A stretch of 64,000 bases of DNA from Ensifer sp. BR816 (GTDB lineage Bacteria; Pseudomonadota; Alphaproteobacteria; Rhizobiales; Rhizobiaceae). The stretch lies in contig NZ_KB905370.1 in the NCBI RefSeq assembly GCF_000378985.1, forward strand, positions 4,338,799-4,402,798. The letters run 5' to 3'. The notes under the pieces were generated by a model. That model ran no database searches, was not told where the DNA came from, and worked only from the letters and a program-made list of their open reading frames with translations. Of this stretch, positions 34,080 to 47,751 are shown in pieces. Every line of letters starts with the position of its first letter. Position 1 is the stretch's first letter. Both the position numbers and the translations under genes were made by a program.

Positions 34080-35501
34080 TCAACCCCGGCGCTTGCCCCG
34101 ACGCCACGGAGCGTTGCTCTGCCAGTCGCCGGCCATGATGGATCCGTAAGGGATCACCTCATCGACCACTTCGGCGAGACCATAGTGCTCGATCTGCGCC
34201 TTCACGGTCGCTGCGTTCTTGTAGGCGCTCGGAAGCTCGGACACGTCGGGCAAGCCGGCGTAGAAGCGCACGTCAAGGCCCTTCGTCTCCTTCTCCATGA
34301 TCGTCGCGATGTTGTTCGGGCTCAGACCGCGAGTGTCGGCGCCATATTCCTCGCGCAGGTGCCTGATATGCGCCGTGCGCGAGAAATTGCGGCCGGCCCC
34401 ATGCGGCGAGAAGCCGAGACCGTTGTCAGCGTTGGAGCCGCGCACGATCAGGATCGGTTCCGCCATGTTCAGCGGAATGATCGTGAGATCGGTCGCATCG
34501 CCTGCCCAGTTGTCGAAAGCGGGCGTCGCACCCTTGCCGTGGTAGAAGAGACCGTCGGATTTCCGGAACACGAAATTGTGCTCGTTCCAGAAACGGTCGC
34601 CGACCTTTGCGGTAAGCTTCTCCGCCGCCATGTCATGGATGGCGAAGTGGTTCTCCTTCGTCCACTGGCGGACCGTCTGCAGGGCCGACCAATAGATTTC
34701 TCCTTCTTCGCTCTCCGCCGGTATCCAGGCGTTTTCCCTCAGCGTTTCCGGGGAAAGCTGCTGGCGAAACCTGTCGGCGAGCTTCATGCCCCTATCATAG
34801 AGCCGCGCGCCAGGCGCACGCGAACCGTGATGGGTGACGAGCGTCGTCTCGCCGGTCGACTTCATTTGTCCAACATAGGCGAAATGGTTGCCGTCGCCCT
34901 GGGTGGCAAAGTGGTCGATGCCGACGCTGACTATCTCCCTGAGAAGCGGATTCTGCTGGAACGCCGAAAGCGTCGCCTCGGAAGGCTTGATCTGTGCACC
35001 GCGAGGGCGTCCACCCGGACCGAAATGCGTCACCGCATGCACGGCATCGAGCAGTGCCTTTGGCGACACCTCCGGGAAGGTCGAGATCGCCATCGAGCAG
35101 CAGATGTCGGCCGAGTGCATGCCGGGATGGATCGCCTCCGAGGCGACTACGCCGCCGACGGGAATCGTGCCAACCGGCCCGGAAGGGCAGGCGTCCGGCA
35201 TGATCGCGGCCGCCCGAACGACAGGTGTGCGGACCAACTCGCGCATGGTGGCGCTGACCTTCTCGATGTTGTCCTGTTCCTGCGTGTTTTCGGCGCGGAT
35301 ATTCATGTGAATGGCCACGTCGTTCCCCGATCGCAGCGGAAGCGTCGGCGCGGGCTGATATCCGCGGGCGGCAGCCAGCGCATCGGCCGTCGAGCCGCCA
35401 TCGCTCAACACCTTGTTGGCTGCTTCAAGCGCCGCGCGAAACCATTTGCCCTGGCTCATGCCGGCATCGATCAAGTCCTGTCCGCTCATTACTCCGGTCA
35501 T
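34080..35501 (-). CDS. rtcB: RNA-splicing ligase RtcB
   Basis: 473 residues. RtcB joins 2',3'-cyclic phosphate (or 3'-phosphate) ends to 5'-hydroxyl ends with GTP and manganese. Visible active-site elements: metal ligands D132 and C135 in HSADICCSM (family DIGCGM, with glycine changed to cysteine), GDGNHF at 202-207, HHGSR at 224-228, and the guanylylated histidine H367 in SPHGAGRNFSR. It is the last gene of the minus-strand unit rsr - five Y-RNA-like units - rtcB, whose activator RtcR is encoded on the other side of rsr. No rtcA cyclase gene is present here. The start used is ATG 35501; ATG 35489 is possible. Confidence 0.93.
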   Translation of the reverse strand: MTGVMSGQDLIDAGMSQGKWFRAALEAANKVLSDGGSTADALAAARGYQPAPTLPLRSGNDVAIHMNIRAENTQEQDNIEKVSATMRELVRTPVVRAAAIMPDACPSGPVGTIPVGGVVASEAIHPGMHSADICCSMAISTFPEVSPKALLDAVHAVTHFGPGGRPRGAQIKPSEATLSAFQQNPLLREIVSVGIDHFATQGDGNHFAYVGQMKSTGETTLVTHHGSRAPGARLYDRGMKLADRFRQQLSPETLRENAWIPAESEEGEIYWSALQTVRQWTKENHFAIHDMAAEKLTAKVGDRFWNEHNFVFRKSDGLFYHGKGATPAFDNWAGDATDLTIIPLNMAEPILIVRGSNADNGLGFSPHGAGRNFSRTAHIRHLREEYGADTRGLSPNNIATIMEKETKGLDVRFYAGLPDVSELPSAYKNAATVKAQIEHYGLAEVVDEVIPYGSIMAGDWQSNAPWRRGKRRG

Positions 35502-35556
35502 TTTCTTATCTGCGTCTGCAGTCCTTCTGTTCCGTTCGTTTCTTCATCGCTTGGGT

Positions 35557-35691
35557 CCCGGCGACGAGTGTTGGCAGGACGCTTTACTGAGCTACGCGTT
35601 CCATCGAACACGGGATGATTTGAACATCCGACCTGCCCGCCTAAGGCTCGACGGGCCGCTCTACCCTGTAGTCCTACCGGCATTCGCCGGG
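35557..35691 (-). ncRNA. Y-RNA-like RNA, unit 5 (next to rtcB)
   Basis: Read on the minus strand from 35691. Outer helix CCCGGCGA (35684-35691) / TCGCCGGG (35557-35564); conserved loop CGAATGCC opposite ACTCGTCG; inner helix GGTAGGAC / GTCCTGCC with one G-U. Inside it is a tRNA-like domain: T arm GGATG-TTCAAAT-CATCC, closed acceptor-like stem CGTGTTC / GAACGCG with loop GATG, then TAGCTCAGTAAAGC, a shortened D arm. The T loop has lost the usual C and G (TTCAAAT). Separated from unit 4 by 33 bases and from rtcB by 55. Same architecture as bacterial Y RNAs of the YrlA type, bound by Ro/Rsr proteins. Confidence 0.8.
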
Positions 35692-35724
35692 CATTGCATT
35701 CCTCAGTTCCCCGGAGGGAACGTC

Positions 35725-35855
35725 GCAGCGGCGACGAGGTGGACGAAACCGGATGGCCCCGCTCGCGACAGAGAGCGCCGCCAAGGGTAGGAGTCGAACC
35801 CAACCAGACCATCCGATGTGGTGAGGCTGTAGTTCCGTCCGGCATTCGCCGCTGC
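35725..35855 (-). ncRNA. Y-RNA-like RNA, unit 4
   Basis: Read from 35855. Outer helix GCAGCGGCGA (35846-35855) / TCGCCGCTGC (35725-35734), a perfect 10 bp and the longest of the five. Conserved loop CGAATGCC opposite ACCTCGTCG; inner helix GGACGGAA / TTTCGTCC with one mismatch. The tRNA-like part has a T arm around GGGTTCGACTCC with one mispair, and a shorter acceptor-like stem CGCTC / GAGCG. No D arm is recognisable. Seven bases separate it from unit 3. Confidence 0.78.
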
Positions 35856-35862
35856 CGTCAAA

Positions 35863-35979
35863 CAGCTTTGCGAGGAAAACTTCCTGCCGTTTCTCCACGA
35901 AGGGAGATGACGGCAGCACAGGCTTCGAACCTGCAACTCCATTCGCGGAGCACCAGCGTCGTTTTCCAGGCATTCGCTG
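35863..35979 (-). ncRNA. Y-RNA-like RNA, unit 3
   Basis: Read from 35979. The outer helix is weak: CAGC / GCTG at the ends with an interrupted GA / TC. The conserved CGAATGCC (5' side) and CCTCG (3' side) remain, and the inner helix GGAAAAC / GTTTTCC is perfect. T arm GCAGG-TTCGAAG-CCTGT; acceptor-like stem CTGCCGT / ACGGCAG, perfect 7 bp, capped by a second hairpin CTCC-CTTCGT-GGAG. No D arm. Seven-base spacers on both sides, the same as between units 1 and 2. The boundary is less certain than for the others because of the weak outer helix. Confidence 0.72.
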
Positions 35980-35986
35980 CCCATTC

Positions 35987-36089
35987 CATGGCGACGAGGT
36001 TTGCGAGAAACACTCTTCCTTGCGGAAGGTGGGATTCGAACCCACGACCCTTGCGGGCTACCGATGGAGTTCCTCACGCATTCGCCATG
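35987..36089 (-). ncRNA. Y-RNA-like RNA, unit 2 (compact)
   Basis: Read from 36089; 103 bases, the shortest. Outer helix CATGGCGA (36082-36089) / TCGCCATG (35987-35994), perfect. Loop CGAATGC opposite ACCTCGTCG; inner helix TGAGGAAC / GTTTCTCG with wobble pairs. T arm GTGGG-TTCGAAT-CCCAC, perfect; acceptor-like stem CTTCC / GGAAG closed by a GCAA tetraloop. No D arm. So the open tRNA acceptor end has become a stable GNRA hairpin. Confidence 0.8.
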
Positions 36090-36096
36090 TATCCGC

Positions 36097-36231
36097 CCGT
36101 GACGACGAGGAGTGGAGAAACGTCCTGCTCTATCCGCTGAGCTACGGGTCCATAAATGGAGGACCCGGCGGGATTCGAACCCGCGACCTGGAGGGTTAAC
36201 AGCCTGTAGTTTCATCCGGCATTCGTCACGG
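36097..36231 (-). ncRNA. Y-RNA-like RNA, unit 1, containing a near-complete circularly permuted tRNA
   Basis: Read from 36231. Outer helix CCGTGACGA (36223-36231) / TCGTCACGG (36097-36105), perfect. Conserved CGAATGCC on the 5' side and CTCCTCG on the 3' side. Inner helix GGATGAAAC / GTTTCTCC with one bulged T. The tRNA part is permuted: T stem GCGGG / CCCGC with loop TTCGAAT (36168-36184), 3' acceptor strand CGGGTCC (36161-36167), discriminator T, encoded CCA (36157-36159), 5-base linker TTTAT, 5' acceptor strand GGACCCG (36145-36151), TA, D arm GCTC-AGCGGATA-GAGC (36127-36142). The acceptor pairs perfectly over 7 bp. The anticodon arm is replaced by the inner and outer helices. Confidence 0.85.
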
Positions 36232-36258
36232 CCCCGCGCCGTTCACGGCGGCGCGGGG
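36232..36258 (-). promoter_or_regulatory. Strong hairpin between rsr and the Y-RNA array
   Basis: CCCCGCGCCG / CGGCGCGGGG, a perfect 10-bp stem with a 7-base loop, 16 bases after the rsr stop and directly abutting unit 1. There is no T-run, so it looks more like an RNase processing or stabilising site that separates the rsr message from the small RNAs than an intrinsic terminator (inference). Confidence 0.6.
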
Positions 36259-36274: not shown

Positions 36275-37831
36275 TCAAAGCTCGATCGCTTCGATACTTT
36301 CCACCCAGGCTTCAGCTCCTGTTCTGTTGGCCGCGAAGGCCGCAATCACAGCATAGACGGCGTCAGAGAAGCCGCCGATGTTCAGCACGTCGTCACGCGT
36401 CGTCGCCTGAGACGTGGCGTAGGGCTGGATATCGAGGCAAACCAGCTTTGCGGCCGGGTTGATCCTCTTGATCCGCGCCCACTCGGTCATCACAGCGGTG
36501 GGCTGACCGCCGCGGCGCGCGTCCACCCAGGACTCGTTGTCCGAGATGAAGACGACGAGATCGACCTTCGCCTTCTCGTTGACAAGCTTCCTGAGCGGCG
36601 CGGAGCAGTTCGTTCCGCCACCGCCGATCGCGGCCAGCTTGCCGGCATTGGTCATCACCGAATCCCGCCGGTTGAGGTCGATGCGCACGACATCGTTCTC
36701 GAACGGCAGCACCCGCGCCTTCGGGTTACGCTGCAGGAAGGCCGCGGTCATCAGACCGGCGACATCGATGCAACGCACCGAGGACGTGGAACCCTTCCGG
36801 TAACCTGTCACCGACGAGCTCATGGAGCCGGATACGTCCGGGCAGAGCACGACATTTCCCTCGATCGCCGGCACATTGGCGATCGCGATATCCATAGCCT
36901 CCTGCAGCGCCTGCCTCACGACATCCGGAACCTGGCTGTCGACCATCCTCCACGCCATCATCAACTGATAGGGGAAGACCTTCGCCCTGCGGATCTCCTC
37001 AGGATCGGAGAGCCGCGCAGCCAGCGTCTCAGCGAACCCATCCACTTCGAACACGCCGTTGCGTGCGAAGGTGTTGAGGTTCTGCCGCACCATCTGCCAG
37101 CCGCCCTTTCGGGCGATCGCGACCCAATGCTCACGGGTGAGCGGCAGGGACGTCAGCAGTTGGAACGGCACGTCCGGCACTGGAGCTCGCTGATCGCGCC
37201 GGAATGCCTCCAGCGATTTCACCAGATCCGGCAGTGCCGCGTGATCATACGGCTTGCCGATCGCCCAGGCGTAGAGCGCCTTACGCTCCTGCGAGGATGG
37301 CTTCGGATGGACCATGCGGATCACATCGGCGAGCGAAGGGTCGTTGCCGACCATCGCACGCAGGATCTGCTCGACGCTTGCGCGCTCGAGCCATGCCTGC
37401 ACGGCCTTCTTCGGCCGCGTGCCGAGCGACTTGCGCCCCGTTGCGCCCGAGCGCATGACCTGAACGAAGCCGCGCAGCATCTTGCCACTTTTCACGACCC
37501 GCGGAAAAGCACGCGCGAAAGCCTCGCTTTGAAGGCTCGAGAGCATCGCCAGCAGCATCACCGGCATGTCCTTCATATAGCCCTTCTCGGCCGCATGGAT
37601 CGCCACTTTGGCAAGGAATTCCGGTTCGACCTGAAGCGCGAGAGCCTTCACCGCATCGAGCTGTTCGGCGCCGTTCGCATAGAAGGTGCCGTTGAACGTG
37701 CCGGTCACGGCATATTGTGCGAGTGTTTCCCGCGCCGACAGTGGATAGGCCGGAGCACCTTCGTGGTTTGTCGCGTCCGTGCCCGGAAGCAGCTTTCCGA
37801 GGTAGGATTTGAAGATTGCCTTGTTGACCAT
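36275..37831 (-). CDS. rsr: Rsr, bacterial Ro60 orthologue (TROVE and vWA domains)
   Basis: 518 residues from ATG 37831 (GAGG seven bases upstream; GTG 37834 is an alternative). Residues about 15-320 form the TROVE HEAT-repeat ring that binds misfolded RNA ends in its hole and Y RNA on its surface (NHEGAPAYPLSARETLAQYAVTGTF, EEIRRAKVFPYQLMMAWR). About 325-515 form a von Willebrand A domain with a complete MIDAS motif D332-x-S334-x-S336 in CPDVSGSMSSS. Ro60 proteins act in RNA quality control with exonucleases. It is the first gene of the RNA-repair unit and follows a sigma-54 promoter; five Y-RNA-like units directly downstream supply its expected partners. Confidence 0.93.
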   Translation of the reverse strand: MVNKAIFKSYLGKLLPGTDATNHEGAPAYPLSARETLAQYAVTGTFNGTFYANGAEQLDAVKALALQVEPEFLAKVAIHAAEKGYMKDMPVMLLAMLSSLQSEAFARAFPRVVKSGKMLRGFVQVMRSGATGRKSLGTRPKKAVQAWLERASVEQILRAMVGNDPSLADVIRMVHPKPSSQERKALYAWAIGKPYDHAALPDLVKSLEAFRRDQRAPVPDVPFQLLTSLPLTREHWVAIARKGGWQMVRQNLNTFARNGVFEVDGFAETLAARLSDPEEIRRAKVFPYQLMMAWRMVDSQVPDVVRQALQEAMDIAIANVPAIEGNVVLCPDVSGSMSSSVTGYRKGSTSSVRCIDVAGLMTAAFLQRNPKARVLPFENDVVRIDLNRRDSVMTNAGKLAAIGGGGTNCSAPLRKLVNEKAKVDLVVFISDNESWVDARRGGQPTAVMTEWARIKRINPAAKLVCLDIQPYATSQATTRDDVLNIGGFSDAVYAVIAAFAANRTGAEAWVESIEAIEL

Positions 37832-37866
37832 CACAGCACCTCTTGATTGGCTTGTGCCAGATAAAT

Positions 37867-37883
37867 TTCAAGAGGCGTGCCAA
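37867..37883 (-). promoter_or_regulatory. Sigma-54 promoter for the rsr / Y-RNA / rtcB unit
   Basis: On the minus strand TTGGCACG-CCTC-TTGAA (37883 to 37867), matching the -24/-12 consensus TTGGCACG-N4-TTGCA except for A in place of C at -12. It ends 35 bases before the rsr ATG. RtcR, the sigma-54 activator known to drive such operons, is encoded divergently next to it. Confidence 0.7.
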
Positions 37884-38040: not shown

Positions 38041-39648
38041 ATGAAGCGACGCGTTGCCATCAGCATTCTCGGGACCACCCTCGACATGGGCAAGCGGGAG
38101 GATCGCTGGAATCGCTGGCGACCAAATGTCGGCCTGTGCCAGCAATCAGGTCTCTTCATCGACCGGCTGGAGCTTATTCACGACAATCATGCCGGGGCCC
38201 TGGCAAGGCGGATCATCGGCGATATCGAAACCGTGTCGCCGGCGACGGAAGTGCGCAGCAACGTCATCAACTTCAAGGATCCTTGGGACTTTTCCGAAGT
38301 CTATACCGGCCTCCGGGACTTTGCCCGCGGCTACGCGTTTGATCCGGACGAAGAGGACTATCTCGTCAATATCACCACCGGGACGCATGTGGCGCAGATC
38401 TGCTGGTTTCTGCTCACCGAAGCCCGCATCATCCCCGGTCGATTGCTTCAGCTCTCGCCGCCCCGGGAACGGGAGCCGGGGGAGGATTTCGCCGGAACGC
38501 ACCGGATCATCGATCTCGATCTCTCCCGCTACGACGAAATCGCCAAGCGCTTCGCCTCCGAACGCGCGGACGCCGCATCCTTCCTGAAGTCGGGGATTTT
38601 AACGCGCAATGCCGCCTTCAACCGGATGATCGACGAGATCGAGCGGGTCGTCATCCGCTCGACGGCGCCTGTGCTCCTGACGGGGCCGACGGGTGCGGGC
38701 AAATCCCAGCTTGCTCGTCGAATCTATGAGCTCAAGAAGAACCAGCGCAAGGTGAGCGGACAGTTCATCGAGGTCAATTGCGCGACCCTGCGCGGCGATC
38801 ACGCGATGTCTGCCCTGTTCGGCCATGTGAAGGGCGCCTTCACGGGTGCAGCCGGCGAACGGGCCGGTCTGCTCAAATCGGCCGACCAGGGCGTGCTGTT
38901 TCTCGACGAGATCGGCGAGCTCGGACTGGATGAGCAGGCGATGTGCCTGCGGGCGATCGAGGAGAAGCGCTTCCTGCCCGTCGGCGCCGACCGCGAGGCA
39001 ACGGCTGATTTCCAATTGCTTGCCGGCACCAACCGCGATCTCGGCGACGAGGTGAGAAAGGGCAGATTCCGCGAGGACCTTTATGCTCGCCTCAATCTTT
39101 GGACCTTCCGACTGCCGGCTCTGCGGGAGCGCAAGGAGGACATAGAGCCCAATATCGAGTTCGAGCTGAGGCGCTATCTGGAGCGCGAGGGACAGAACGT
39201 CACCTTCAACAAGGAAGCACGCGAACGGTATCTTGCTTTCGCCACCAGCCCACAGGCAGTCTGGAGCGCGAATTTCCGGGACTTGTCGGCCTCCATTACG
39301 CGGATGGCCACGCTCGCCCCGCACAGCCGCATCACAATCGATGTCGTCAATGACGAGATCCGCAGGCTGAACGCGTTCTGGCGGCCCCCATCAGACGTTC
39401 CTGATGGTGACTCGATCCTCGAAGAGCTCCTCGGCGCCGGTGGGGCAGCGCGCCTCGATCGTTTTGATGCAGCGCAACTTGCCGCAGTACTTCGCATGTG
39501 TCGGGATCATGCGACGGCGAGTGCCGCCGGCAGAGCGCTTTTCGCAAATTCCCGCCTGGAAAAGAAGAGTAGCAATGATGCCGACCGTCTCGTGAAATAT
39601 CTTGCGCGCTTTGGCTTACGATTCGAGGACGTAACGAAGCGGGACTAG
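38041..39648 (+). CDS. rtcR: RtcR, sigma-54-dependent activator of RNA repair
   Basis: 535 residues. N-terminal CARF-type sensor domain (about 1-180; VAISILGTTLD opening, VNITTGTHVAQICWFLL) that in other bacteria responds to RNA fragments with cyclic phosphate ends. AAA+ domain with Walker A GPTGAGKS at 215-222, the sigma-54 contact loop GAFTGA at 265-270, and Walker B VLFLDE at 285-290. The C-terminal 100 residues would hold the DNA-binding helix-turn-helix. Divergent from rsr, 209 bases apart, with a sigma-54 promoter in the gap. It probably senses tRNA or Y-RNA fragments and switches on the Rsr/Y-RNA/RtcB unit (established for enteric RtcR; inferred here). Confidence 0.92.
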   Translation: MKRRVAISILGTTLDMGKREDRWNRWRPNVGLCQQSGLFIDRLELIHDNHAGALARRIIGDIETVSPATEVRSNVINFKDPWDFSEVYTGLRDFARGYAFDPDEEDYLVNITTGTHVAQICWFLLTEARIIPGRLLQLSPPREREPGEDFAGTHRIIDLDLSRYDEIAKRFASERADAASFLKSGILTRNAAFNRMIDEIERVVIRSTAPVLLTGPTGAGKSQLARRIYELKKNQRKVSGQFIEVNCATLRGDHAMSALFGHVKGAFTGAAGERAGLLKSADQGVLFLDEIGELGLDEQAMCLRAIEEKRFLPVGADREATADFQLLAGTNRDLGDEVRKGRFREDLYARLNLWTFRLPALRERKEDIEPNIEFELRRYLEREGQNVTFNKEARERYLAFATSPQAVWSANFRDLSASITRMATLAPHSRITIDVVNDEIRRLNAFWRPPSDVPDGDSILEELLGAGGAARLDRFDAAQLAAVLRMCRDHATASAAGRALFANSRLEKKSSNDADRLVKYLARFGLRFEDVTKRD

Positions 39649-47324: not shown

Positions 47325-47509
47325 TGTTTACCTCAGCGCGTTCAAGGTGGCCATCTCGACATTGTCCGATGGTTAATTGGGAAACCGGTTACAGGCCGGT
47401 GCTGCCCCCGCAACGGTAGCGGAACCAAATCTCGACGAATGCCACTGGCTGCAGCCGGGAAGGTGTCGAGAGCGTCCGAACGGACGGTTCCGAAGCACGG
47501 AAACCAGCC
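47325..47509 (+). promoter_or_regulatory. Cobalamin (B12) riboswitch
   Basis: Conserved cobalamin-aptamer blocks occur in the right order: TTAATTGGGAA (47373-47383), the core CTGCCCCCGCAACGGTA (47402-47418), GCCACTGG (47441-47448), CGGGAAGG (47456-47463) and the closing GGAAACCAGCC (47499-47509). CCATC (47351-47355) can pair with GATGG (47368-47372). The 5' boundary is approximate. The next gene, 242 bases downstream, is fdhA. Such riboswitches normally shut off expression when B12 is abundant. The expression platform is not clear; GGCGGGC / GCCCGCC near 47535-47570 could form part of it. Confidence 0.88.
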
Positions 47510-47751
47510 TTGAACGCAGACTCGACCGATCGCGGCGGGCGATTGAGAGGCGGATGTGGCGTGCCCGCCGGGCTGCTCCGTTCAACTCTCGCTTCCACCC
47601 CATCGGTCCTGCAGAGCGTTTGCGAAGTCCGCTCGGTATGCGCGCGGCTGCAAGCGATTGGCCCGGTCCACGGAGGATCGGGCGGGAGAGGGCGTTCGCG
47701 CGTGGTCGCGGCCGCAAATGATGAGACGTTCAACCCAAGGAGGAGACGGAC

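Follow-up and report, generated by a model that had tools for sequence, protein, structure and literature searches.

A tandem array of Y RNAs with different tRNA-like heads between the rsr and rtcB genes of Ensifer sp. BR816

The interval between the rsr and rtcB genes of Ensifer sp. BR816 holds a tandem array of five small RNA units, of which four are complete bacterial Y RNAs and one, unit C, has a decayed Rsr-binding stem. We have little doubt that the units are Rsr-associated Y RNAs whose heads mimic tRNA. The interpretation that we favor, with a probability of about one half, is that they make up a set of adaptors for Rsr that differ in their tRNA-like heads. The window referred to below is the whole stretch of DNA analysed (64,000 nucleotides from contig NZ_KB905370.1); its features of interest, in window positions, are the following.

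38041..39648, plus strand: rtcR, sigma-54-dependent activator (NCBIfam NF038308, 814.7 bits against a cut-off of 650; Pfam RtcR, 1.5e-78)
37868..37882, minus strand: sigma-54-like promoter site TGGCACGCCTCTTGA, 48 bp upstream of rsr
36275..37834, minus strand: rsr, divergent Ro60/TROVE protein (Pfam vWA_Ro60, 6e-19)
36232..36258, minus strand: GC-rich hairpin of 12 bp, between the rsr stop and unit A; similar hairpins at other loci
36097..36231, minus strand: unit A, YrlA-type Y RNA (Rfam RF02553, 61.6 bits, E 1.8e-13; covariation; tRNA match)
36184-36168, minus strand: T-arm of unit A
36167-36145, minus strand: closed acceptor of unit A with NCCA and linker
36142-36127, minus strand: D-arm of unit A
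35987..36089, minus strand: unit B, Y RNA with variable-arm hairpin, T-arm and short closed acceptor (RF02553, 33.3 bits)
35863..35979, minus strand: unit C, degenerate Y unit with variable-arm hairpin, T-arm and long closed acceptor (covariation)
35725..35855, minus strand: unit D, Y RNA with an elbow-only head of T-arm and D-arm-like hairpin (covariation; no Rfam match)
35557..35691, minus strand: unit E, Y RNA with a D-loop-opened tRNA body as its head (covariation; RF02553, 35.3 bits)
35661-35658 and 35592-35589, minus strand: D-stem halves of unit E
35656-35635, minus strand: anticodon-position hairpin of unit E (22 nt)
35629-35613, minus strand: T-arm of unit E
35612-35595, minus strand: closed acceptor of unit E
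34080..35501, minus strand: rtcB, RNA ligase (Pfam RtcB, 1.6e-27)

On the minus strand the order is rsr, a gap of 773 nt, and rtcB. The preliminary description of this DNA had recognized Y-RNA-like RNAs within an rsr-rtcB RNA-repair locus and placed them between the genes for Ro60 and RtcB. Both statements agree with the Rfam YrlA matches and with the Pfam, NCBIfam and PDB matches of the neighboring genes, rsr lying directly upstream of the array and rtcB downstream. The Rsr protein is distant from those studied so far: its TROVE match falls marginally under the Pfam cut-off, the NCBIfam Rsr model gives 91 bits against a cut-off of 900, and the top PDB match is the Rsr structure 2nvo (8.5e-25). 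The RtcB family has a single match genome-wide; RtcA (RTC family) has none at E≤0.001 in the whole genome. The 12-bp hairpin on the 5' side of unit A is perhaps a processing or insulating element; terminator-like sites show no enrichment (4, versus 4.0 in shuffles). A leader, AGAAGGACTGCAGACGCAGA, lies directly before the rtcB start (35509-35528, minus strand) and is found in the same or nearly the same form at other loci. Elsewhere, the window contains a cobalamin riboswitch (47328-47526, plus strand; 95 bits).

Units A, B, D and E share the motifs CGAATG and CTCGTCG and an inner helix. Their outer helices measure 9, 8, 10 and 8 bp, respectively, with the CGA/TCG pairs counted in, in line with the 8-10 bp initially given for units 1, 2, 4 and 5. 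The letters CGAANG/TNGTYG match the Rfam consensus, and the combination of 5' CGAANG and 3' TNGTYG in the outer helix is what we take to be the Ro60 binding site. Both motifs are present in A, B, D and E and not in C, where the outer stem is a 4-bp CAGC/GCTG helix and the 3' TNGTYG is missing. When the comparison is extended to other loci, the two motifs occur together in 36/36 class D units, 2/2 of class B, 22/34 of class E and 0/8 of class C, as well as in 32 of the 35 class A matches, one unit split in two being among these. A strict rule demanding the motif plus a helix of at least 4 bp finds four units in the region, compared with 0/2000 dinucleotide shuffles holding any. The same rule finds no further unit elsewhere in the window on either strand, and a single one in total over 20 whole-window shuffles. 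As for the tRNA-like domain (T-arm, D-arm and closed acceptor), A and E have all its elements, E in another permutation; D is without an acceptor, and B and C are without a D-arm, the variable arm, T-arm and acceptor being present. The original idea that all five units share every feature thus applies to A, B and E, and has to be given up for C, with its short stem and missing motif, and for D.

A search of the window with the YrlA covariance model RF02553, as the preliminary description had proposed, gave a mixed answer: A, E and B are matched with the scores listed above, all below the cut-off of 69, and C and D are unmatched. Units of relatives do exceed this cut-off (L028, 74.8 bits; L012, 72.7; L202, 95.1). 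When well-known genomes were searched as controls, 6 of 14 gave a match at E≤0.001, and in a sample of the taxonomic class none of 289 genomes has a match above the cut-off. Taken alone, scores of 33-35 bits such as those of B and E therefore carry little weight. It is the motifs, position and covariation that argue for B and E being Y RNAs.

The proposal that pairing is kept by compensating changes is well supported. Changes were counted on hand-written structures. In class E (34 sequences), 95.8% of the cells are paired and 22 pairs show double changes, against 8.3 (sd 1.8) in shuffled alignments; in the stem at the anticodon position double changes occur at 7/7 pairs. The corresponding values are 98.1% and 7 against 1.6 for class D (36 sequences), and 98.5% and 11 against 3.8 for class A (36 sequences, 33 distinct; this alignment, A3, omits L023 and takes two units from L008). 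For each of A, D and E, the observed paired cells and double-change pairs were reached by 0/500 shuffles; the number of further pair types in class D was reached by 4/500. Support from homologous loci, by which the preliminary description had wanted its proposal judged, therefore exists for these three classes, and it recurs in a second E set made up of 17 E-model matches from 16 loci, all beside rsr and with no row or locus in common with the training set. Here the count of pairs was 29, compared with 18.6 (sd 1.9) in shuffles, and the covariation score 0.500, compared with 0.162; the alignment of this set (A6) was fitted to the E model and counts all rows, including the near-copies L188, L189 and L190 and three (L191, L192 and L039) that by eye look like other head types forced on the E model. 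The covariation of class II heads, for which there are few sequences, is weak: double-change pairs amount to 2 against 1.0 (reached by 76/500 shuffles) in one case and 5 against 3.4 (46/500) in another.

The compensating changes also bear on the notion that these are ordinary tRNA remnants or a degenerate tRNA cluster rather than Y RNAs. The T-arm and D-arm matches to tRNA are indeed strong. However, ARAGORN detects no tRNA in the window, the outer and inner helices with the Y motifs show both conservation and covariation, and the permuted order has been kept as well; we consider this notion highly improbable. Folding energy is of limited help. The z-scores of single units are -2.74 (A), -3.72 (B), -3.78 (D) and -4.92 (E), but the lowest-energy fold of A contains the T-arm, acceptor, D-arm and outer helix without the inner helix, and the YrlA of control record L201 folds no better than shuffles (z -0.47), which makes folding energy alone a poor test.

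In circularly permuted tRNA genes, the 3' half precedes the 5' half and the two are linked through the acceptor ends. The heads in the window are likewise built with the 3' half first and the acceptor ends joined; they differ in being embedded in a Y RNA stem, in the lack of a canonical anticodon arm and in belonging to a bacterial host. In unit A the elements run in the order variable region, T-arm, acceptor 3' strand, NCCA, linker, acceptor 5' strand, UA and D-arm, so that the head is a tRNA with the Y stem substituted for the anticodon arm. CCA follows the acceptor in 30/36 class A units. Compared with the 48 tRNAs of the same genome, the class A 5' half scores best with the four tRNA-Arg (42, 41, 38 and 36; median 20), and the 3' half with tRNA-Pro(GGG) (41) followed by tRNA-Arg(CCU) (40). 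Class B matches tRNA-Ser(UGA) first (42; median 21) and tRNA-Pro(GGG) at 41, with all four tRNA-Ser among the top six; by this measure, the B head seems to resemble the 3' half of tRNA-Ser. The same comparison gives no clear isotype for the heads of C, D and E, whose tRNA identity looks weak or absent. The C head follows the plan of B with a long acceptor hairpin. None of the 8 class C units has the 3' motif, and CGAATG is kept in the window's unit alone. The variable arm, T-arm and acceptor are nevertheless retained in this class (35863-35979, minus strand, plus 7 relatives) despite the decayed Rsr site, as if the head might work without Rsr. In D, a T-arm is followed by a D-arm-like hairpin and the acceptor is missing; 4 of the 5 D-arm pairs of the class are invariant, and its T-loop varies at one position only.

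The E head appears to be a class I tRNA body opened in the D-loop. Its acceptor-D linker is TA in 31/34 sequences, its T-loop TTCAAAT or TTCAAGT in 22/34, and its variable region spans 5 nt in 34/34 (alignment columns). The compensating changes in two sequence sets point to a second permutation of the tRNA fold. A true anticodon arm being defined as 17 nt with a 7-nt loop and U33, the hairpin at the anticodon position departs from it throughout the class: it measures 20-24 nt in 33/34 sequences and 14 nt in one, and none of the 34 hairpins has a 7-nt loop when contiguous stems are counted. In the second E unit of L020, a 7-nt loop with T in the second place, on a 7-bp stem, can be drawn if one A-T pair is opened. 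The idea that class E is a faithful mimic of the anticodon arm was dismissed, the canonical length being found in 0/34. In the window the hairpin consists of 7 bp and an 8-nt loop and is therefore altered but still open; the stems of relatives are often extended to 8-10 bp.

A canonical anticodon arm is missing from every head in the window. On these grounds, the Y RNAs would probably stay uncut, unlike the tRNAs that they imitate, and repair of anticodon-loop cleavage inside them seems unlikely; the roles that remain are those of a competitor resistant to cutting and of an adaptor. One could envision the former as a decoy, whose head titrates tRNA-cutting nucleases or tRNA-binding toxins and protects tRNA while RtcB carries out repair. 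The diversity of heads would fit a diversity of nucleases. Many anticodon nucleases, however, read the anticodon arm itself, the very part that is missing or altered here, and an Rsr-binding stem would be superfluous in a simple decoy. In the available text of the Salmonella operon study, Hughes et al. saw no fragments of YrlA and put forward the idea of a competitive nuclease inhibitor (PMC7790460). On balance the decoy interpretation strikes us as rather unlikely.

The adaptor interpretation draws on the organization of related loci. An Rsr scan yielded 36 relative loci, one of which (L031) lacks rtcB in its contig; the remaining 35 were compared together with the window. The rsr-rtcB gap ranges from 524 to 1209 nt in all 36. 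Units were assigned by class-wise nhmmer, the label being that of the best single-sequence match. An A or A2 unit comes first in 36/36 loci (many second-place units with the label A2 score 22-33 bits and are doubtful members of class A), D is found in 36/36, E in 26 and F in 18; classes B, B8, J, I, G, H and C each occur in fewer loci than F. In the 26 loci where D and E occur together, D comes first 25 times (the exception is L036), and F is last in all 18 loci that hold it. There are 3 units in 7 loci, 4 in 2, 5 in 14, 6 in 7, 7 in 4 and 8 in 2, one of the sevens (L023) being a six in which a split class A unit was counted twice. Five is the commonest array size and hence ordinary. The preliminary description had regarded a five-member array as unusual; this does not survive the comparison, in which 36/36 loci hold 3-8 units and arrays recur outside the family. 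It had also reported that the first four units lie exactly 7 bases apart, and A-B, B-C and C-D are indeed separated by 7 nt each (D-E by 33 nt). This regularity is a property of the window: where the first two units are adjacent, the first gap is 7 nt in 3/22 loci and 8-39 nt in the other 19, and exact spacing was discarded as a constraint.

Classes F, G and H of relatives have no T-loop head, and no such unit occurs in the window. Taken together with the loss of the Rsr site in C, they show that a unit may lack either of its ends. The coexistence of headless units, the presence of two E units in 8 loci and the tRNA-like modification of YrlA (PMC8394870, available text) would be understandable if the heads merely aided folding, modification and resistance to decay, the units being redundant gates of Rsr that drifted apart after duplication. 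Drift is difficult to reconcile with class-specific heads and a layout kept across genera, D being universal among the loci; with the near-invariant D-arm pairs and T-loop of class D; or with the retention of the class C head after its Rsr site was lost. We judge an explanation by stability and drift alone unlikely.

In several respects the array resembles known systems. The YrlA RNA of Salmonella (RF02553) has, like unit A, an outer helix with the Rsr-site motifs, an inner helix, a circularly permuted head with T-arm, closed acceptor and D-arm, and a position beside rsr and rtcB. Its permutation relative to tRNA is described for structure 6CU1 (PMC11472068, available text); Rsr binds to its stem and PNPase to its tRNA-like domain, in which DusA and TruB introduce modifications (PMC8394870). 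The window differs in having five units with unlike heads: in E the opening of the tRNA lies in the D-loop and a hairpin still occupies the place of the anticodon arm, B and C have a variable arm, and D is without an acceptor. YrlB (RF02565) and other Y RNAs that lack a tRNA-like head have the Rsr-site stem and compare with F, G and H of relatives; the window has no headless unit. The rsr-yrlBA-rtcBA operon with RtcR shares with the window rsr, Y RNAs, rtcB, a divergent rtcR and a sigma-54-like site. In contrast, the window's genome has no RtcA match, and its Y RNAs outnumber the two described and named in Salmonella (PMC9879122, available text). The 2020 study of the Salmonella operon, as far as its available text goes, left the roles of Rsr and the Y RNAs aside (PMC7790460).

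The literature examined (titles and abstract openings among the matches listed, with subscription papers mostly outside) contained neither arrays of 3-8 Y RNAs with different heads nor a head opened in the D-loop. A survey by Chen et al. in 2014 reportedly found Y RNAs near Ro60 in more than 250 species, at least one per species being tRNA-like; it may mention multi-RNA loci. YrlA, its permutation, its modification and its tethering of PNPase are thus already known; the multi-head arrays and the D-loop-opened head appear, within the literature examined, to be new.

The Salmonella-type locus itself might be richer than described. The control record OR851267.1 (L201) is enterobacterial, was deposited as a Salmonella Kentucky phage contig and is probably host DNA. 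It has Rfam matches to YrlB (105.5 bits) and YrlA (70.9 bits), both above the cut-offs, and an extra YrlA match of 31.7 bits, below the cut-off, between yrlA and rtcB (924-1037). With the E model this third stretch scores 36.8 bits, more than the YrlA of the record does (24.3). It folds (922-1040) with outer and inner stems, an anticodon-position hairpin, a T-arm and a closed acceptor (z -2.92; 2/200 shuffles equally good). Positions 690-1050 have an identical copy in OR845705; searches of the E. coli and plasmid collections gave no match. The Salmonella-type rsr-yrlBA-rtcB locus thus probably holds a third Y RNA that has not been named.

The locus is both widespread and patchy. The class D model finds matches in 24/394 genomes of the family; scores exceed 75 bits in 20 of these, and the other 4 (49-56 bits) perhaps belong to other classes. 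Such patchiness indicates that the locus is dispensable. Similar DNA is present on 49 plasmid records, 45 of them from Rhizobium and 12 with at least 80% query coverage. Patchiness and plasmid carriage are also what one might expect of decoys. The class E model matches 4/33 genomes of the genus at E≤0.001, three strongly (147.8, 141.8 and 130.1 bits) and the fourth, G699, at 32.4 bits with neither rsr nor rtcB nearby. At E≤1e-6, low scores counted, it matches 26/297 genomes of the order and 21/398 of the phylum; the order and phylum loci examined are those other than L171, L173, L175, L178, L179 and L180. Among 34 E-model or related loci, an rsr of at least 51.9% identity is found in 26, one of 22% in L177, and none in seven; L168, L169, L174, L176, L197, L198 and L200 have neither an rsr nor an rtcB match nearby. 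Arrays with several heads can be discerned by eye at the distant loci L038, L039, L067 and L068 and, outside the taxonomic class, at L170 and L172. R1 matches in the taxonomic-class sample (51/289 genomes at E≤0.001, 47 of the 51 with a best score below 45 bits) were excluded from the Y RNA counts.

Some distant loci have features of their own. In L187 (1811-3129) a Tpt1/KptA RNA 2'-phosphotransferase gene (Pfam 1.3e-50) comes directly after the Y RNA array and is followed by an RtcB gene (Pfam 1.9e-68), which adds an extra tRNA-repair enzyme to such loci. Other tRNA-like small units, with a GCGGGCCGG / ATGCCCGC stem, lie upstream of a distant Ro60-like gene (25-26% identity) in L071 (1300-2240) and L070 (1000-1760); in L071 two units match YrlA below the cut-off (44.9 and 39.9 bits), and one stretch barely attains that of the nematode sbRNA family RF01656 (38.2 versus 38). 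Myxococcus phage Mx1 (L203, 3001-5705) encodes an Rsr of 46.6% identity, near which are tRNA-Gly and peptidyl-tRNA hydrolase genes; this stretch has no YrlA match at E≤0.01.

Of the features of an RtcR-type repair operon, rtcB, a divergent rtcR and a sigma-54-type promoter (by sequence match) are all present here, and the rtcA cyclase gene has no match in the genome at E≤0.001. In 36/37 loci rsr is preceded, at a distance of 47-60 bp, by a site that fits TGGYAY...TTGA, none being recognized by this pattern in L023, and rtcR is divergent from the operon in all 37. Sigma-54-like sites are no rarer in the window than expected by chance (57 found, 64.5 expected), and the evidence for the promoter is accordingly its conservation across loci. 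RtcR is present in 6/6 genomes checked. The Salmonella operon is under RtcR control and responds to damaged tRNA (PMC7790460, PMC9879122; available text); by analogy, the same control and response would apply to the operon in the window. In the available text of a later study, tRNA fragments bind the CARF domain of E. coli RtcR and are insufficient for RtcR activation in vitro (PMC9650030). The conserved site and the divergent rtcR suggest that the array is induced together with rsr and rtcB after tRNA damage.

From these elements we would assemble the adaptor interpretation as follows. Upon tRNA damage, the Y RNAs would be transcribed with rsr and rtcB from the RtcR/sigma-54 promoter and presumably processed to single RNAs. 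In complete units the outer helix with its CGAATG / CTCGTCG internal loop would bind the Rsr ring, and the inner helix would hold up a head imitating part of a tRNA: an Arg-like body without anticodon arm, a Ser-like 3' half, an elbow, or a whole body with an altered hairpin at the anticodon position. With heads that differ, Rsr could be loaded with different adaptors. Each might bring a tRNA-recognizing enzyme (PNPase, RNase P, modification enzymes or RtcB) to the damaged tRNA held by Rsr or, alternatively, its head might occupy such an enzyme. It is tempting to speculate, and we offer it tentatively, that the adaptors, each of them lacking a canonical anticodon loop, are exchangeable and each mimics another kind of tRNA, letting one Ro60 ring sort, hold or shield different damaged tRNAs ahead of repair or decay.

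If so, the D-loop-opened head of E would provide, alongside YrlA, a second design for a permuted tRNA mimic. The E-model match in OR851267 hints at an unnamed third Y RNA in the Salmonella-type operon. A series of Y RNAs that differ in the head module and stand beside one Rsr lends itself to a direct comparison of the partners of each head. Rows of 3-8 unlike Y RNAs may let the repair system handle different tRNAs.
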